Positions 12,423 through 20,635 of a DNA stretch of 20,752 nt are shown here, piece by piece. This DNA comes from a virus: the IMG/VR virus record IMGVR_UViG_3300042475_002264, positions 1-20,752 of that record, one strand, 5' to 3'. The translations under genes and the position numbers were made by a program. The notes beneath the pieces are model-generated. The model was not told the DNA's origin. It did not search any database and was given only the letters and a program-made list of their open reading frames with translations. Position 1 is the stretch's first letter, and each line of letters starts with the position of its first letter.

Positions 12423-13703
12423 TCATTCATCACCGAACATAACCTTCTTACCCACAGGCGGAATGAAGTCACGGCGCTGAGTAACCATCCACAGGGTTGG
12501 GCTAGAAATGTTCCACTTGATGTCACCCTCTACATATCCATCGGTGAACACTAGGACACATTCAGCATTGAGCTTGTGCTTGTTTACATACTCACTGACA
12601 CATGAGACCTTAGTTCCGCCACCGCCCAAAGGCTTGAGCATCTTGGCAATGTCGGAGTAGTTGTCTTTAAACACTTGCTCACCATGCACCTCGGTATCCC
12701 ACCAAAGAACACGAACGACTTCGGGCTGACAGACCTCGCAAATTGAAACCAGTTCGGTAGCGAACTCGGTTATCTCTGCCCCACCTATCGAGCCTGATGT
12801 ATCGATGGCTACGATGATCTCGCCAATGCTCTCGTTCATCACGCTTGGCAGATAAATATCATTAGCCATCTGACGCTTGTTCATGCGACGCCATGTGAAC
12901 TCATCGTTACCCTTAGTCGATGAAGAGACGAACTCACGCAACGCATCACGCCAGTCAACCTTGGGTTCAAGTAAGTCGGAGATAACTCTAGGAATCTTCG
13001 CACCCATGCGACCTGCAAGCATCCCGCCTTCACGCAACGCTTTGTCGATGTCGTCTAAGATTTCCTTAGCTTCCTCGGCTGACACCTCACGGCCAATGAA
13101 GTCGTGTTCGTCTGCCTGAGAAATGTCATAGGTCTTGCCGTTGACTGTGACTGTATCTCCATCCATGTCATCGTCGTCGTTAGATTGTGTCCCACCCGAT
13201 GGTGGGGGATTACCTTGACCCTTACCGCCTTGACCTCCGCCACCGCCTTTCTTGGCGTGCTTCTTGAGATAGTTGTATACCTCACGCATAGACCAATCGT
13301 GGAACATCGGGTCATAGATCGCGCCATCGGGCAACTCGACAAGACGCTCGCTTGTTCCTGCAATAGTCCCATCAATGTTGGCGATGATGTCGTTCACAAC
13401 AAAGTCAGCCGCTAGGTTAGCCATCTTGCGGTTCTCCATAAACATGGCACGACCGAACACGACTTGCTTCAAGGCAACGTGGAGATTCTCATGGAGGATG
13501 AGACCACGCACCTTGCTCTCGCTGAGAATACTCTCCAAGAACTTGCGACCATACTTCTTGTTGACACCATCGGTGTATGCAGTAGGTACGCCTTCCTCTA
13601 CTGCGGATGTCCCCATCAACATAACGCCTGAGTACAGGGCAGTCTGTGGGTGCTTCATAAGCGCGATGTGTCCACGCTTGATTCGGGTTTCTTGCTTGCT
13701 CAT
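12423..13703 (-). CDS. VWA-like metallopeptidase protein (DUF2201 type, CobT/ViaA-like)
   Basis: This is 426 residues from the ATG at 13703 (MSKQETRIKRG; GGAG lies 6 nt upstream). The N-terminal domain contains HENLH (71-75), the HExxH zinc-peptidase motif, followed by NLAADFVVND, whose Asp may be a further zinc ligand, as in DUF2201 N-terminal domains. A Gly/Pro/Asp linker (about 152-180) leads to a VWA-like domain with the MIDAS IVAIDTSGSIGG (301-305), GGGGTKV (Thr364) and VFTDGY (Asp388). Proteins of this build pair with MoxR AAA+ ATPases, here encoded by the gene at 14025-15140. By analogy with RavA-ViaA and CobS-CobT the pair probably remodels or matures a target complex with metal dependence. 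Some annotations call such proteins cobaltochelatase-like, which the HExxH argues against. Confidence 0.88.
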   Translation of the reverse strand: MSKQETRIKRGHIALMKHPQTALYSGVMLMGTSAVEEGVPTAYTDGVNKKYGRKFLESILSESKVRGLILHENLHVALKQVVFGRAMFMENRKMANLAADFVVNDIIANIDGTIAGTSERLVELPDGAIYDPMFHDWSMREVYNYLKKHAKKGGGGGQGGKGQGNPPPSGGTQSNDDDDMDGDTVTVNGKTYDISQADEHDFIGREVSAEEAKEILDDIDKALREGGMLAGRMGAKIPRVISDLLEPKVDWRDALREFVSSSTKGNDEFTWRRMNKRQMANDIYLPSVMNESIGEIIVAIDTSGSIGGAEITEFATELVSICEVCQPEVVRVLWWDTEVHGEQVFKDNYSDIAKMLKPLGGGGTKVSCVSEYVNKHKLNAECVLVFTDGYVEGDIKWNISSPTLWMVTQRRDFIPPVGKKVMFGDE

Positions 13704-13792
13704 CATGGTCTCCAATAAAACAAATCTAACAATAAAACAATCATTCCTAACAGGAACAACACTCTCTCGAACTTCTCGGCTCTAGTAAGCAT
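13703..13792 (-). CDS. 29-residue membrane micro-protein between MoxR and VWA genes
   Basis: This short frame begins at the ATG at 13792, overlapping the preceding stop (TGATG) directly behind AAGGAGG, and ends overlapping the VWA gene start. It encodes MLTRAEKFER followed by a hydrophobic run (VLFLLGMIVLLLDLFYW) and RP: one short transmembrane helix with a charged head. Coupling on both sides and an excellent ribosome site support translation, but at this size the coding call is uncertain. It may help join the module to the inner membrane or simply couple translation. Confidence 0.45.
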   Translation of the reverse strand: MLTRAEKFERVLFLLGMIVLLLDLFYWRP

Positions 13793-13977
13793 CACACCTC
13801 CTTGAACTCGATGTAGTCATCGGTCTCGATAACTTGAATCTTGCCCTTGGCAATGCGTACCAACAACTCACTAGTAATGTGTTTATGTTGGCGGAACTTG
13901 CCGTTCACATAGCCGTAGCCAAGTGACGCAACGATAGCCCATGCCAATAGAAACAACTCAGCGATACTGAATGTCAT
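13792..13977 (-). CDS. 61-residue single-pass membrane protein of the MoxR-VWA module
   Basis: The start is set at the ATG at 13977 (MTFSIAELF) because GGAG lies 6 nt upstream; the ATG four codons earlier would place that site inside the gene. A hydrophobic segment at about 4-25 (SIAELFLLAWAIVASLGYGY) is followed by a basic cytoplasmic-type tail (NGKFRQHKHITSELLVRIAK) and an acidic end (VIETDDYIEF). The tail, with a short 'LLVRIAKGKIQVIE' strand-helix, could contact a soluble partner. It lies between the MoxR ATPase (ends 14025) and the VWA protein genes, with dyad b in the gap upstream. No named family recognised. Confidence 0.65.
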   Translation of the reverse strand: MTFSIAELFLLAWAIVASLGYGYVNGKFRQHKHITSELLVRIAKGKIQVIETDDYIEFKEV

Positions 13978-14000
13978 ATCAATCTCCATGTAAATAAGAA

Positions 14001-14016
14001 CCCACTGTGTCGTGGG
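14001..14016 (-). promoter_or_regulatory. Intergenic dyad b, CCCAC-N6-GTGGG
   Basis: A perfect 5-bp inverted repeat with 6-nt spacing lies between the MoxR stop (14025) and the small membrane protein start (13977). It matches seven other intergenic copies. In the minus-strand mRNA it would form a hairpin 24 nt before the start codon. Confidence 0.6.
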
Positions 14017-14024
14017 GTTAAGTT

Positions 14025-15140
14025 TTAGAACAACTCGTGGTTGTTCTTAGCCCACTCAGCGATCTTGGCATTGTTGCGAGCCAAGCGAATGGACTTCGTA
14101 TTGCGCATCATCATTGTGAAGAACACGCCTTGTACCTCGGATGAGGGAATACGCTCAACGAACGCCATGAACTTGGTCAGTTGGTCTTGCGTCTCCAATA
14201 CATCTACTGCCTGAAACATAATCATTAACTGCGCGCTGATGTCTCTCGGCATATCAATGCTCTCGGGTGCTTTGACGATGTCCTTCACATCGATCAATGA
14301 TTTCTCCATTGATATGAATGCCGCCATGTCTGCCGCGAATGACGCACCGACAGTACCAGCCAACGCCACCTTCGTGCCGTTCTCACCGATCGCATCACGA
14401 TTGCGCACGATCACATCGGCCTTCGCCAACGAACGAGGGGACACGAACGATAAGGTACTCATAGATGGTTTGAAGATGTATGGGTTATCGTTCTGATCAC
14501 CTGTGGTGTACGACGCCAAGCAACGAGGGAACATAGCCACCGATGCACGAATGACACGAGAGATACTATTCTCTGATGCCCATTGCAACCACTCGTTCAC
14601 ATTGGGTTTCGCCATGCGCATGATGCAAACACGATTACCTGCATGGGCAAGCATGGAGTCACCCACGCCATCACCTGCATTGTTCGATGTTGCAAAAACT
14701 AGAGACCCACGGGGCAGTGGCTTGTCACCCGCCATTCGCTCAAGAAACAACCTAGTGAAAACTACCTGCAATAGCTTAGGCGACTTCATGAACTCGTCAG
14801 CCAAGATAACCTTAGGCTTGGGGTCGTTCAAGTTGAAGAGGCTTGAGACGTAGTACTCAAGGGTTTGAGTCGCATGATTGGGAATAGTCATACCGATGTC
14901 TGACATATCCTTGACGGGGCAGTCGATGTAGATGTAGTCGTACTTGTCACCTGCGATGCTCATGCCATCGGCAGGGCTACGCCACTTGTCGCCATTGTCA
15001 GCGGCAATCATAGCCAACAGGGAAGTCTTGCCACAACCTGGTTCTGACTGAATGACAGGCGTGATCTCTGAAGCTATTAGGGGAATGATCTTACGCAGTT
15101 CGTTGATTGAAACTGTTTCGACTGTTTGAACTTTAGACAT
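14025..15140 (-). CDS. MoxR/CobS-like AAA+ ATPase
   Basis: This is a protein of 371 residues. It carries Walker A in SEPGCGKTSLLAMIA (Gly35-Ser40), Walker B KVILADEFMKSP (Asp115, Glu116), sensor 1 VFATSNNAGDG (Asn153-154) and a likely arginine finger region, DSMLAHAGNRVCIM (Arg170). The pattern 'DSMLAHAGNRV ... MAKPNVNEWLQWA' is typical of the MoxR and CobS branch (AAA_5), whose members act as ATP-driven chaperones for VWA-domain partners. The partner is very likely the VWA/metallopeptidase protein two small genes downstream. The ribosome site (AAAGAAAGTAATCAATC) is weak. It follows the 304-residue gene by 54 nt in the same P1-driven transcript. Confidence 0.9.
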   Translation of the reverse strand: MSKVQTVETVSINELRKIIPLIASEITPVIQSEPGCGKTSLLAMIAADNGDKWRSPADGMSIAGDKYDYIYIDCPVKDMSDIGMTIPNHATQTLEYYVSSLFNLNDPKPKVILADEFMKSPKLLQVVFTRLFLERMAGDKPLPRGSLVFATSNNAGDGVGDSMLAHAGNRVCIMRMAKPNVNEWLQWASENSISRVIRASVAMFPRCLASYTTGDQNDNPYIFKPSMSTLSFVSPRSLAKADVIVRNRDAIGENGTKVALAGTVGASFAADMAAFISMEKSLIDVKDIVKAPESIDMPRDISAQLMIMFQAVDVLETQDQLTKFMAFVERIPSSEVQGVFFTMMMRNTKSIRLARNNAKIAEWAKNNHELF

Positions 15141-15194
15141 GATTGATTACTTTCTTTACTGAGGTTGAACTGATAAAGTACTTATTGCCGCTCT

Positions 15195-16109
15195 TCATAC
15201 GCACTTGAATGCGCTGAACTTACCGAGGATGTCGTCGATATCCTCCTTCACTGCGTGACGCACCGCATCGGACTCACGAATGTCCTCTGCCGTTACACCA
15301 CTCAATGCTTTCTCTAGCGATGCCCGAGCCTCTTCCAGATCTGGATCACCGCTAAGATTGAAGCCCTTGAATGTATCGCACATTTCTTTGGCTTTCTGTA
15401 TGGTCGTGTCGTATATCTTACGCTTCTTGGTCTTGGTTTCGCCAGTGTTGTCATCGATGCCAACATCGTCTACACCACAGCAATGGCTGATCGATTTCAT
15501 AACTTCGATGAACCTTGTTTGTTGCTCCACCATGACGTGAGATACTATTTCCTGAGCTTGTTGACTGTATGTAGCAAACAAATCCTCAGCGATGTCTGAC
15601 GCTATGCCACATCTGAAATCCGACATGGGAACTTCCGATACAAAAAGCTGGACACCGAACTTAGATACCAGTTGCTCTTTAGCGGGGTAGTCATTGCGAT
15701 CGAACATATCGCCTTGCTTGAACGCCATGTCAGAGACAATGCTATCGTAGGCAAGGATGAAGTCGCCAAGCAGGGTGTTGAATGCCGCCTGATGTGCGTG
15801 ATACTCTTGCTTGAACTTGGGCATATCCACAGACGGCAATAAGTCCTGCGAGTTGTTCCATCTATAAGTTCTGCGCTTGACCCAGTTGTAGATAGTCTGC
15901 CGATAGTTGACGATCGCCTTGTGACGAGGGTGATCTGCCAAGAGGTTCTTGACGTAGCGGCCTGCGCTCTTGTCTGCATTCTTTGATGCAGTAACTTCAT
16001 TGCTGATACCACGGTCTTGCTTCGTCGCTGACCATACATTGACATCCACGCTCACGAGGACTGCTGATGAAGCAAGGCTGATGAGGTGATCGGGTTTATG
16101 TAATTCCAT
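15195..16109 (-). CDS. Third component of the MoxR-VWA module (DUF3150-like?)
   Basis: This is 304 residues from the ATG at 16109, supported by AAGGAGAGAGTT; the open frame continues upstream but there covers the leader dyad and is non-coding. The sequence is mainly helical: an early segment SSAVLVSVDVNVWSATKQD, a basic middle (YNWVKRRTYRWNNS), a Cys pair (SHCCGVDDVG) and a Lys-rich loop (ETKTKKRKIYDTT), then charged helices to the end. In plasmids and ICEs, CobS/MoxR and VWA genes are often accompanied by a protein with the same 'LVSVDVxxWSxxK' start, which I recall as DUF3150. I make that assignment from memory and gene order. It probably is a substrate, adaptor or scaffold for the ATPase. 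It is the first gene after promoter P1. Confidence 0.65.
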   Translation of the reverse strand: MELHKPDHLISLASSAVLVSVDVNVWSATKQDRGISNEVTASKNADKSAGRYVKNLLADHPRHKAIVNYRQTIYNWVKRRTYRWNNSQDLLPSVDMPKFKQEYHAHQAAFNTLLGDFILAYDSIVSDMAFKQGDMFDRNDYPAKEQLVSKFGVQLFVSEVPMSDFRCGIASDIAEDLFATYSQQAQEIVSHVMVEQQTRFIEVMKSISHCCGVDDVGIDDNTGETKTKKRKIYDTTIQKAKEMCDTFKGFNLSGDPDLEEARASLEKALSGVTAEDIRESDAVRHAVKEDIDDILGKFSAFKCV

Positions 16110-16136
16110 AACTCTCTCCTTTGGTTGAAAACAAAT

Positions 16137-16152
16137 CCCACTGATGCGTGGG
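16137..16152 (-). promoter_or_regulatory. Leader dyad c, CCCAC-N6-GTGGG, in the P1 leader
   Basis: A perfect dyad lies 28 nt before the start of the 304-residue gene and is flanked by the half-box CTAAATAG. It lies within the transcript from P1, so a 5'-UTR hairpin is expected. Leaders c and e share further bases after the dyad (TTTGTTT, CAACCAA, AAGGAGAGAG). Confidence 0.65.
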
Positions 16153-16197
16153 TTTCTAAATAGTGGGCTAGTTAAAAAACTCTTCCCACTAGCTATA

Positions 16198-16227
16198 AGT
16201 ATAACACAACTTGACCTTTGAGTCAAG
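16198..16227 (-). promoter_or_regulatory. Promoter P1 with CTTGAC-N6-GTCAAG operator-like dyad
   Basis: On the minus strand, -35 TTGACT (16221-16226), 17-nt spacer and -10 TATACT (16198-16203) form a near-consensus sigma70 promoter. A dyad CTTGAC-N6-GTCAAG (16210-16227) covers the -35 element and most of the spacer, so a bound repressor would block RNA polymerase. The predicted start is near 16191. It drives the 304-residue, MoxR, membrane and VWA genes. Promoter P2 is almost identical. Confidence 0.88.
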
Positions 16228-18964: not shown

Positions 18965-19570
18965 TTATTTGTTGTATGTCGTCCAGAATGCTTTTACGGC
19001 AAGGGCAAACTTTGCGCTGTTTGCTGTTGTATCGCCCTTGGTCTGTTTCACCTTGACTGATTTCTCTTGAGCTTCGAATGTCTTGGTCATCGATTCAACA
19101 AAATCTAATGTGGTGCGTGTTGTGGTGTTGCCGTTTCGCTTGGCAAGTATTTTCTTGCAAGCCCTTTTCAGATCACCTAATCGATTAGAACAGTAATCTG
19201 AGACATCCTCTCTAATACCCTTTACGATGCCATGCAAGGCAGGGTTTGTATTTTTGAGCTTTCCGAATTCCTGACTGGAAAAAGCAAAGGCATAAGCCAC
19301 ACCGATTTCAACCTTTTCAACCTTTGCATTTTTGATCTGCTCGGGTGTTGCAAGTATGTAATGGTCATTCACAACGGCATAGACCTTGGCAGGGTTTCTT
19401 TCGCTTTTCCGTTGTCTATAACCCTCATAAAGCATTTCCCTTGCATCGCTTGAGATGTCCTCTGGAAAACCTGAGATGTTAGCCAAGGCATATTCTGCTT
19501 GGTTGTCTAGGCTATCACCTGTGCTTGCTTGCTGATAACCCAGATCTTTCAATGATGTAATGGTAGACAT
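18965..19570 (-). CDS. Tandem paralogue A, unknown early-type phage protein
   Basis: This is a protein of 201 residues with a very strong ribosome site (AGGAGGACGCT). It aligns along most of its length with the upstream protein (19798-20454). Shared blocks include TSLKD, KVYAVVNDHYI with ATPEQIK, VEKVEIGVAYA, SSQEFGKL with NTNPALHG, and DYCSNRLGDLKRACKKIL. The last block is a Lys/Arg-rich helix that could bind nucleic acid. The C-terminal 60 residues diverge and are Lys/Thr-rich. No known domain is recognised. Each paralogue has its own leader and terminator, so both are probably made in quantity and alone. Candidate roles are DNA-binding accessory factor or early regulator; neither is shown. 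Confidence 0.8.
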   Translation of the reverse strand: MSTITSLKDLGYQQASTGDSLDNQAEYALANISGFPEDISSDAREMLYEGYRQRKSERNPAKVYAVVNDHYILATPEQIKNAKVEKVEIGVAYAFAFSSQEFGKLKNTNPALHGIVKGIREDVSDYCSNRLGDLKRACKKILAKRNGNTTTRTTLDFVESMTKTFEAQEKSVKVKQTKGDTTANSAKFALAVKAFWTTYNK

Positions 19571-19797: not shown

Positions 19798-20454
19798 TTA
19801 CTTAGCTTCGGAGTGTTTCCACTTCACCATGAAGGCGACTTTGGCTTCATTCCAACGCTTCTCGTCAGCCGTAGCGTCATTACGACTTCTAGCTGATATC
19901 AGCCTAGTTGGAGCGGTTTCTTTAAACCAATCTTCGACAAACTCATCGAAGTTCTTATTGGCTGTACGCTTGCGTTCTTGACCCTCATTGAGAATCTTTG
20001 TAGCGGCTCGTTTCAAGTCGCCCAGTCGATTCGAGCAATAAGTAGAACACTTCTCTCTAATCTCTTTAATAAGAGAGTGGAGGGCTGGGTTGGTGTTGGC
20101 CAACTTACCGAACTCTTGCGCTGAGTAGCTATAAGCGTACGCTACACCAATCTCTACCTTCTCCACGTTATTCGCCTTCATATGCTCAGGCGTGGCGCGG
20201 ATATAGTGGTCATTGATAACCGCGTAAATTACCGCGGGTTTCAACAAATTGAACTTCATACGATATCCATCATATAAAGCGTCTTTGGCTTCAGTTGGGA
20301 CTTCTTTAGGAAAGTCTTTGACGTTGCCCAAAACGTAGCGGGCTACGTCTTCGAGAGTCTGAGCGGCTCCCGCTTGTTGAAAGGCTGAATCCTTCAAAGA
20401 AGTGAAGGCGGGTTGCGTGGCGGATTCCACGGCTTTTGCGGCTGATTTTGCCAT
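19798..20454 (-). CDS. Tandem paralogue B, unknown early-type phage protein
   Basis: This is 218 residues from the ATG at 20454 (MAKSAAKAVESA), with GGAG upstream; the frame stays open for another 48 codons but those translate the repeat unit and leader. It is a clear homologue of paralogue A: TSLKD, IYAVINDHYIRATPEH, VEKVEIGVAYAYSYSAQEFG, ANTNPALHSLIKEIR, STYCSNRLGDLKRAATKIL. The N-terminal 16 residues are an extra Ala/Lys/Ser-rich segment. The C-terminus differs (FDEFVEDWFKE ... ARSRNDATADEKRW). No catalytic motif is visible. The conserved middle with two strands and a basic helix suggests a shared binding function, with changed C-termini giving different partners. Confidence 0.8.
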   Translation of the reverse strand: MAKSAAKAVESATQPAFTSLKDSAFQQAGAAQTLEDVARYVLGNVKDFPKEVPTEAKDALYDGYRMKFNLLKPAVIYAVINDHYIRATPEHMKANNVEKVEIGVAYAYSYSAQEFGKLANTNPALHSLIKEIREKCSTYCSNRLGDLKRAATKILNEGQERKRTANKNFDEFVEDWFKETAPTRLISARSRNDATADEKRWNEAKVAFMVKWKHSEAK

Positions 20455-20545
20455 GTTCAAATCTCCATAAGAATGAACGATTGATGAAATACTGGGGGCT
20501 GAATTGCTGACCCAGTGATGTAACCTTACGCTTGTGGGTCTCTTA

Positions 20546-20635
20546 AGTAAAGTTCCACGAGGGGATGGGTCTCTAATTAGCGATCTTGCGACTCGCACGC
20601 ACGCAACGCTCTCGCCTTAGATAACTGGTATCAAA
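20546..20635 (-). repeat. Right-end intergenic repeat unit h
   Basis: 90 nt: AGTAAAGTT, dyad TCCAC-N6-ATGGG (20554-20569), CTAATTAGCGA, CTTGC, a CG-rich spacer, then TAGATAACTGGTATCAAA (one change from g). It lies between the terminator of the gene entering at the right edge and the leader of paralogue B, the same relation as unit g has to paralogue A. Confidence 0.75.

Follow-up and report, generated by a model that had tools for sequence, protein, structure and literature searches.

A phage module encoding a MoxR-like ATPase, a VWA-metallopeptidase and a divergent DUF3150 homologue parallels gene triads of plasmids and carries accessory membrane microproteins

The IMG/VR virus record IMGVR_UViG_3300042475_002264, from a freshwater phage, carries, within the 20,752 nucleotides analysed here (positions 1 to 20,752 of the record, hereafter called the window), a module of five genes that all reside on the minus strand downstream of a sigma-70-like promoter. 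Three of these genes encode a 304-residue, mostly helical protein termed HEL (positions 15195-16109), a 371-residue MoxR-like AAA+ ATPase (14025-15140), and a 426-residue DUF2201 protein (12423-13703) in which an N-terminal zincin-like metallopeptidase domain bearing the sequence HENLH is joined to a C-terminal von Willebrand factor A (VWA) domain with a full metal ion-dependent adhesion site (MIDAS). The remaining two encode the single-pass membrane proteins sm1 (61 residues; 13792-13977) and sm2 (29 residues when counted from ATG; 13703-13792), and are located between the ATPase and VWA genes. Two points are new: a third component related to the DUF3150 family, which ties these phages to gene triads of plasmids, and a family of microproteins specific to the ATPase-VWA junction. 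We propose, with about even confidence, that the module is a phage copy of a ternary machine of mobile elements, which would act early and in the cytoplasm as a chaperone-protease for establishment, and which would sometimes be tethered to the membrane.

The VWA protein is a member of the DUF2201 family (PF13203 and PF09967; PHROG 1314), with DUF2201_N (3e-25) and DUF2201 (8e-18) both exceeding the Pfam gathering score and with intact HExxH and MIDAS motifs. Among 41 non-redundant relatives, E72 and H75 of the HExxH motif are present in every sequence and H71 in 40, and the MIDAS residues D301, S303, S305, T364 and D388 are found in all 41. The zincin and MIDAS residues that a preliminary description of this DNA had picked out from the sequence are thus nearly invariant. 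That description also predicted that misannotation as cobalt chelatase would be likely in databases. A labelling error does exist, but the name in use is ‘HNH endonuclease’, which is attached to PHROG 1314 and to many NC_ RefSeq phage records, N4 gp25 included, where Pfam gives DUF2201 domains instead.

The ATPase matches the profile of PHROG 1297, the N4 gp24 family, over its full length (4.9e-45, residues 6-370). Walker A residues G35, G37 and K38, Walker B residues D115 and E116, sensor-1 residue N153 and R236 of an S-P-R motif are conserved in 37 of 37 non-redundant relatives, which bears out the intact Walker A, Walker B and sensor-1 motifs recognised earlier. Since no AAA or MoxR model from Pfam or NCBIfam exceeds its cut-off for the window protein, we call it ‘MoxR-like’ rather than a formal member, a label based on its motifs, its fold and its partner, whose gene adjoins the ATPase gene. 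A plasmid homologue (L198) narrowly reaches AAA_5, with a score of 22.4 against a cut-off of 22. Among the best matches of the predicted fold are CbbQ (Z 10.6), NorQ (10.2) and CbbQ2 (10.2), with dynein and ClpC/ClpB chains within 1 Z unit. RavA-ViaA, NorQ-NorD and CbbQ-CbbO likewise pair a MoxR-type ATPase with a VWA protein; to our knowledge, however, the VWA partners in those systems have no zincin domain and no DUF3150 partner.

Searches with the single HEL sequence (Pfam, PHROGs, and tblastn against phage records) returned nothing, and a sequence search of the PDB yielded nothing meaningful. When a HEL profile was compared with seven plasmid DUF3150 proteins, however, it matched with a probability of 95.7 and an E value of 1e-8 over residues 14-156, the N-terminal half of the protein. 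An AlphaFold2 model built from 31 homologues matched the structure of a DUF3150 protein from an uncultured phage in BFVD (E 1e-15). The Pfam model PF11348 weakly matches 11 of the 31 HEL members (best 3.8e-4) and had no match when searched across whole phage and plasmid records. In both phages and plasmids, moreover, the HEL gene accompanies genes for a MoxR-type ATPase and a VWA protein, which is the gene context of DUF3150. Because the window protein has no PF11348 match and stays below the Pfam cut-off, we describe it as a divergent DUF3150 homologue, on the basis of the profile and structure matches, and not as a formal family member. One close relative with 97% HEL identity (L167) was binned in an uncultured actinobacterial metagenome-assembled genome, where a binning error is possible; we draw no conclusion about the host from it.

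Homologues of HEL are encoded on 31 plasmid records (Burkholderiales, Rhodovastum and others), and in 22 of these the alignment spans 80% or more of the query. In the five such records that were opened, an ATPase, HEL and a DUF2201 protein are all present, and all are recognised by profile hidden Markov models (HMMs) of the phage clade (HEL 1e-22 to 1e-32, VWA 1e-25 to 1e-42, ATPase 1e-12 to 1e-18). The three genes are consecutive in four of the five; in the Simplicispira plasmid, several small genes separate HEL from the ATPase gene, which lies about 3.6 kb upstream. These Burkholderiales and Rhodovastum triads are therefore homologous to the window in all three proteins, but differ in gene order (ATPase-HEL-VWA) and in the sequence of HEL, which is only about 22-27% identical to that of the window.

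A wider set of triads surrounds canonical DUF3150 genes on plasmids and integrative and conjugative elements (ICEs). In the IncA plasmid pRA1, in pR997, and in plasmids of Stutzerimonas (S. stutzeri), Vibrio (V. fluvialis), Enterobacter and Rhodanobacter, an AAA/MoxR gene precedes the DUF3150 gene and a VWA gene follows it, sometimes with other genes between; the record of Escherichia coli plasmid pT82A stops before any VWA gene would show. The HExxH motif is invariant in the VWA proteins linked to DUF3150, and on diverse plasmids these runs often lie beside RecT/Bet and exonuclease genes. A DUF3150 relative is encoded in 1,107 of 72,556 plasmid records. Such triads share with the window three adjacent or nearby genes of the same domain types and a DUF3150 protein homologous to HEL. 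They differ in their order (ATPase-DUF3150-VWA) and in their VWA protein, which is longer (about 550-700 residues, CobT-like) and is not matched along its length. The expectation that a MoxR-type ATPase and a VWA/zincin partner would be accompanied by a dedicated third protein in mobile elements is thus confirmed on plasmids. The DUF3150 triad seems to be undescribed, as our literature search found no paper naming DUF3150. In the ICE SXT, deletions of s067, s068 and s070, among which the DUF3150 counterpart may lie, reduced transfer by at most 10-fold (PMC2791158).

The three genes are also linked in related phages. Pooled scans based on the ATPase, on HEL and on profiles gave 183 partly redundant phage loci, and HEL, the ATPase and the VWA protein co-occur in every one of them, contig ends excepted. 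Among the 80 IMG/VR loci found by the ATPase, the three occur together wherever the contig is long enough, and HEL is present in all 17 long contigs. In no relative are the ATPase and VWA genes found apart from each other, and their neighbourhood is what the preliminary description had required of its proposal. Two loci (L080 and L081) retain all three genes in the changed order ATPase-VWA-HEL, so the gene set survives rearrangement. The ratio of non-synonymous to synonymous substitution rates (dN/dS), calculated from codon alignments among close relatives, is 0.055 for HEL, 0.095 for the ATPase, 0.146 for the VWA protein, 0.32 for sm1 and 0.28 for sm2, compared with 0.19-0.29 for three genes nearby; among these eight genes, HEL is under the tightest constraint. 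The module stands at the head of a DNA-replication gene block. In a 65.7-kb relative (G002), the triad resides on the plus strand with genes for DNA polymerase, an SNF2 helicase and primase, and the terminase, portal and tail genes lie opposite on the minus strand; the primase was recognised by a PHROG match, and the polymerase and helicase were assigned from positions and lengths that agree with those in the window.

At least one short hydrophobic open reading frame (ORF) is present in 74 of 98 non-redundant ATPase-VWA junctions. The sm1 family comprises 31 non-redundant members with identities down to about 20%. In these proteins, a short and acidic N-terminus leads into a single membrane span, and the tail behind it bears the recurring motif [IV]AKGK-x-K[IV]. 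Their mean net charge is -0.8 before the span and +1.9 after it, a pattern that suggests an N-out/C-in topology with a cytosolic C-terminal tail of about 40 residues. Each of 11 among 18 contigs encodes sm1 once, always at this junction, and the other seven have none; across the loci analysed, a search with the family gave 114 junction matches and no strong match elsewhere. It follows that sm1 is a real micro-family that is specific to the ATPase-VWA junction and is under purifying selection. The preliminary description regarded the micro-genes as its novel point, and in this respect was correct. However, its proposal also depended on their retention by close relatives, and this did not hold: a phage with 91% ATPase identity (L014) lacks both sm1 and sm2, three others (L006, L007 and L016) lack sm1, and the relatives without sm1 include some at 91-96% ATPase identity. 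Since they are absent from some close relatives, the micro-genes are accessory, and sm1 is not part of the core of the machine.

The strongest rival explanation concerns these micro-ORFs only, and holds that these small genes have nothing to do with the ATPase-VWA machine, being holin-like, exclusion or moron genes that have entered a permissive junction. On the ATPase tree, 61 of the 96 phages carry sm1, and the well-supported branches require its state to have changed at least eight times. The junction also holds other inserts: sm2 and other membrane ORFs of 29-36 residues partly replace sm1, an 87-residue ORF is present in L036, and a 172-residue ORF that is HNH-like by eye lies beside sm1 in L059, which indicates that the junction accepts foreign genes. 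A homologue of sm2 is even found 5ʹ of HEL in two loci (L029 and L030). No real-looking membrane micro-ORF was seen in the N4 gp24-gp25 gap or in the other Schitoviridae junctions examined; a hydrophobic ORF at the junction of VBP47 was discounted, since it shares its DNA with an annotated HNH gene that is read in a different frame. No membrane microproteins are annotated between the genes of the Burkholderiales and Rhodovastum plasmid triads, and sm1 was not seen on the plasmids. Against this explanation stands the confinement of sm1 to a single junction in all 11 contigs that have it. Furthermore, in the window sm1 is probably coupled to the VWA start through sm2, whose gene, encoding a C-terminal D-x-FYWR sequence, overlaps both the sm1 stop and the VWA start. 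Because the sm1/sm2 and sm2/VWA junctions overlap as TGATG/ATGATG, the three genes are probably translationally coupled. We judge the explanation by unrelated micro-genes to be a close contender that falls a little short of even.

Phages were already known to carry the ATPase/DUF2201 pair, both as gp24/gp25 of N4, which are core genes of the Schitoviridae, and in jumbo phages. The N4 proteins are homologous to those of the window (clade HMM E values of 1.8e-17 for the ATPase and 1.2e-29 for the DUF2201 protein), are encoded in the same order and retain HExxH and MIDAS. The best Schitoviridae matches are only about 22-28% identical to the window proteins, however, and neither a HEL/DUF3150 partner nor a junction microprotein was found in the genomes examined. 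In the published list of 14 N4-like core genes, no function is given for gp24, and the entry for gp25 names only a vWFA domain (PMC4193335). For group 2.2 jumbo phages, Iyer et al. (2021) described an AAA+ ATPase together with a vWA protein that has an N-terminal metallopeptidase, as in the window, but as a pair only, with no third or membrane protein named (PMC7824862).

These authors proposed that their MoxR and metallopeptidase-vWA pair serves virion assembly (PMC7824862), and a second explanation for the module is accordingly that the ATPase-VWA pair acts as an assembly chaperone and maturation protease, folding or cutting a structural protein. A similar proposal exists for the archaeal virus ATV, and some virion protein genes lie near the gp24/gp25 homologues in the N4-like phage RPP1 (PMC4193335). 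A dedicated role in virion assembly is nevertheless less likely because the triad occurs on plasmids, which make no virions. In addition, transcription of the triad of G002 runs with that of replication genes and against that of the terminase, portal and tail genes, and N4 gp24 and gp25 are middle genes (PMC4193335). We therefore consider this explanation unlikely. Where the preliminary description left the choice between a host and a virion complex as the target, a host or DNA-metabolism target is now the more likely one.

A third explanation, to which we give similarly little credence, is counter-defence or superinfection control, in which the machine would disarm a host defence complex or exclude rival phages and the small membrane proteins would place it at the site of entry. 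The position of the module in an early block, the wide occurrence of the triad on phages and conjugative plasmids that face the same host defences, and the gain and loss of accessory membrane proteins all favour this possibility. The vWA-MoxR ternary conflict systems also combine MoxR, vWA and a third protein, but VMAP, which has effector domains, takes the third place there (Kaur et al. 2020, PMC7159879). A PADLOC scan of the module matched no family, although it did not include a direct alignment of HEL to VMAP profiles. Moreover, all three proteins evolve under strong purifying selection, unlike the fast divergence that is usual in arms-race genes. Finally, a metal-insertion enzyme (a cobalt or magnesium chelatase of the CobS/CobT type) would share the MoxR-VWA logic, and IncA/C relatives are often annotated as cobS/cobT, but we rejected this reading as highly improbable because no CobN/ChlH-like large subunit was seen within the 20.7-kb window, a HExxH zincin domain is present, and no chelatase family matched above its cut-off.

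Several observations weigh against the proposal of a conserved ternary chaperone-protease. A phage homologue (L072:6053-7342, LLENLH) and a Variovorax plasmid homologue (L199:7938-9236, ATVLH) have lost part of HExxH, and therefore proteolysis may not be universal in the family and may be lost while the rest is kept. HEL was not found in Schitoviridae, either by tblastn against phage records or by applying the clade HMM, with or without plasmid members, to N4-like loci, and the ATPase-VWA pair can therefore work without it; the only match in these phage searches, a weak one, is in the soil phage Tunturi_3. The HEL model is of moderate quality (predicted local distance difference test 78, predicted template modelling score 0.50). 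Its fold has no PDB match with an E value below 0.001, and comparison with VIA gave Z scores of up to 8.6 over short helical bundles only, which are not significant. Profiles of the phage ATPase and VWA protein cover only the P-loop or HExxH region of the plasmid partners linked to DUF3150. Because the relation to these CobS/CobT-like partners is so weakly visible by profile, we treat the two sets as triads that share a design in parallel, and not as proven orthologues. Finally, sm1 is missing from 35 of the 96 phages in the ATPase tree.

MoxR ATPases assemble into protein-remodelling rings, VWA/MIDAS domains recognise acidic ligands, and zincins cleave peptides. In the ternary chaperone-protease that we favour, the ATPase ring would remodel a target protein selected by HEL as a dedicated adaptor, and the VWA domain would use its MIDAS metal to dock on either the ATPase or the target, thereby positioning the zincin domain for cleavage. 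Action would probably be cytoplasmic and take place at the establishment or DNA-metabolism stage, on nucleoprotein complexes of the host or the mobile element rather than on the virion. This stage and these targets are favoured because the triad occurs on plasmids, G002 carries it in a gene block with replication, and the N4 homologues are middle genes. About two thirds of these phages have a membrane microprotein that may hold part of the machine at the inner membrane as a tether.

The promoter of the module (16198-16226, minus strand) has an extended -10 architecture, TTGACT-17-TATACT with TG before the -10 element (10/12), and is kept upstream of HEL in relatives, up to distant ones. A palindrome, CTTGACTCAAAGGTCAAG, covers its -35 element (about 16210-16227, minus strand). 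The preliminary description called the promoter repressible. The promoter itself is real and conserved, and the palindrome is retained in close relatives and in L016, L029 and L039. In L032 and L061, however, it is broken, and no repressor was recognised, so the promoter may or may not be repressible. A near-copy of promoter and palindrome on the minus strand at 18321-18293, with 3 mismatches in 29, suggests that the two promoters are co-regulated.

The 5ʹ untranslated region of the module contains a hairpin, CCCACGCATCAGTGGG (16137-16152, minus strand), and another, CCCACGACACAGTGGG (14001-14016, minus strand), lies in the gap between the ATPase gene and sm1. Both belong to a hairpin class that is repeated in this phage group, (C/T)CCACG-N4-CGTGG(G/A), whose members stand in front of genes and are often preceded by TAATTAG or a similar sequence. 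The minus-strand copies in the window are at 20569-20554, 18833-18818, 18247-18232, 17835-17820, 16152-16137, 14016-14001 and 8317-8302. In other lineages of the group the hairpin reads TCCACG..CGTGGA, which resembles paired changes, and the element is possibly an intercistronic RNA element. Elsewhere on the minus strand, the neighbouring genes at 18965-19570 and 19798-20598 look like tandem paralogues with similar protein sequences and are accompanied by direct repeats of 36-59 nucleotides; PHROG and Pfam searches with these genes gave no match.

A broader proposal, which we offer tentatively and consider rather doubtful as a whole, is that MoxR, DUF3150 and VWA/zincin proteins constitute a general and undescribed ternary unfoldase-protease of conjugative plasmids, ICEs and phages that would remodel or destroy host or nucleoprotein complexes at establishment, and to which a freshwater phage clade would have added a family of single-pass microproteins for inner-membrane tethering. 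The presence of a third protein common to plasmids and ICEs shifts the likely role of the gp24/gp25-type pair from particle building to the establishment of mobile DNA. The role of the triad is testable in standard plasmids and phages, and the junction microproteins offer a tractable handle on where the machine acts.

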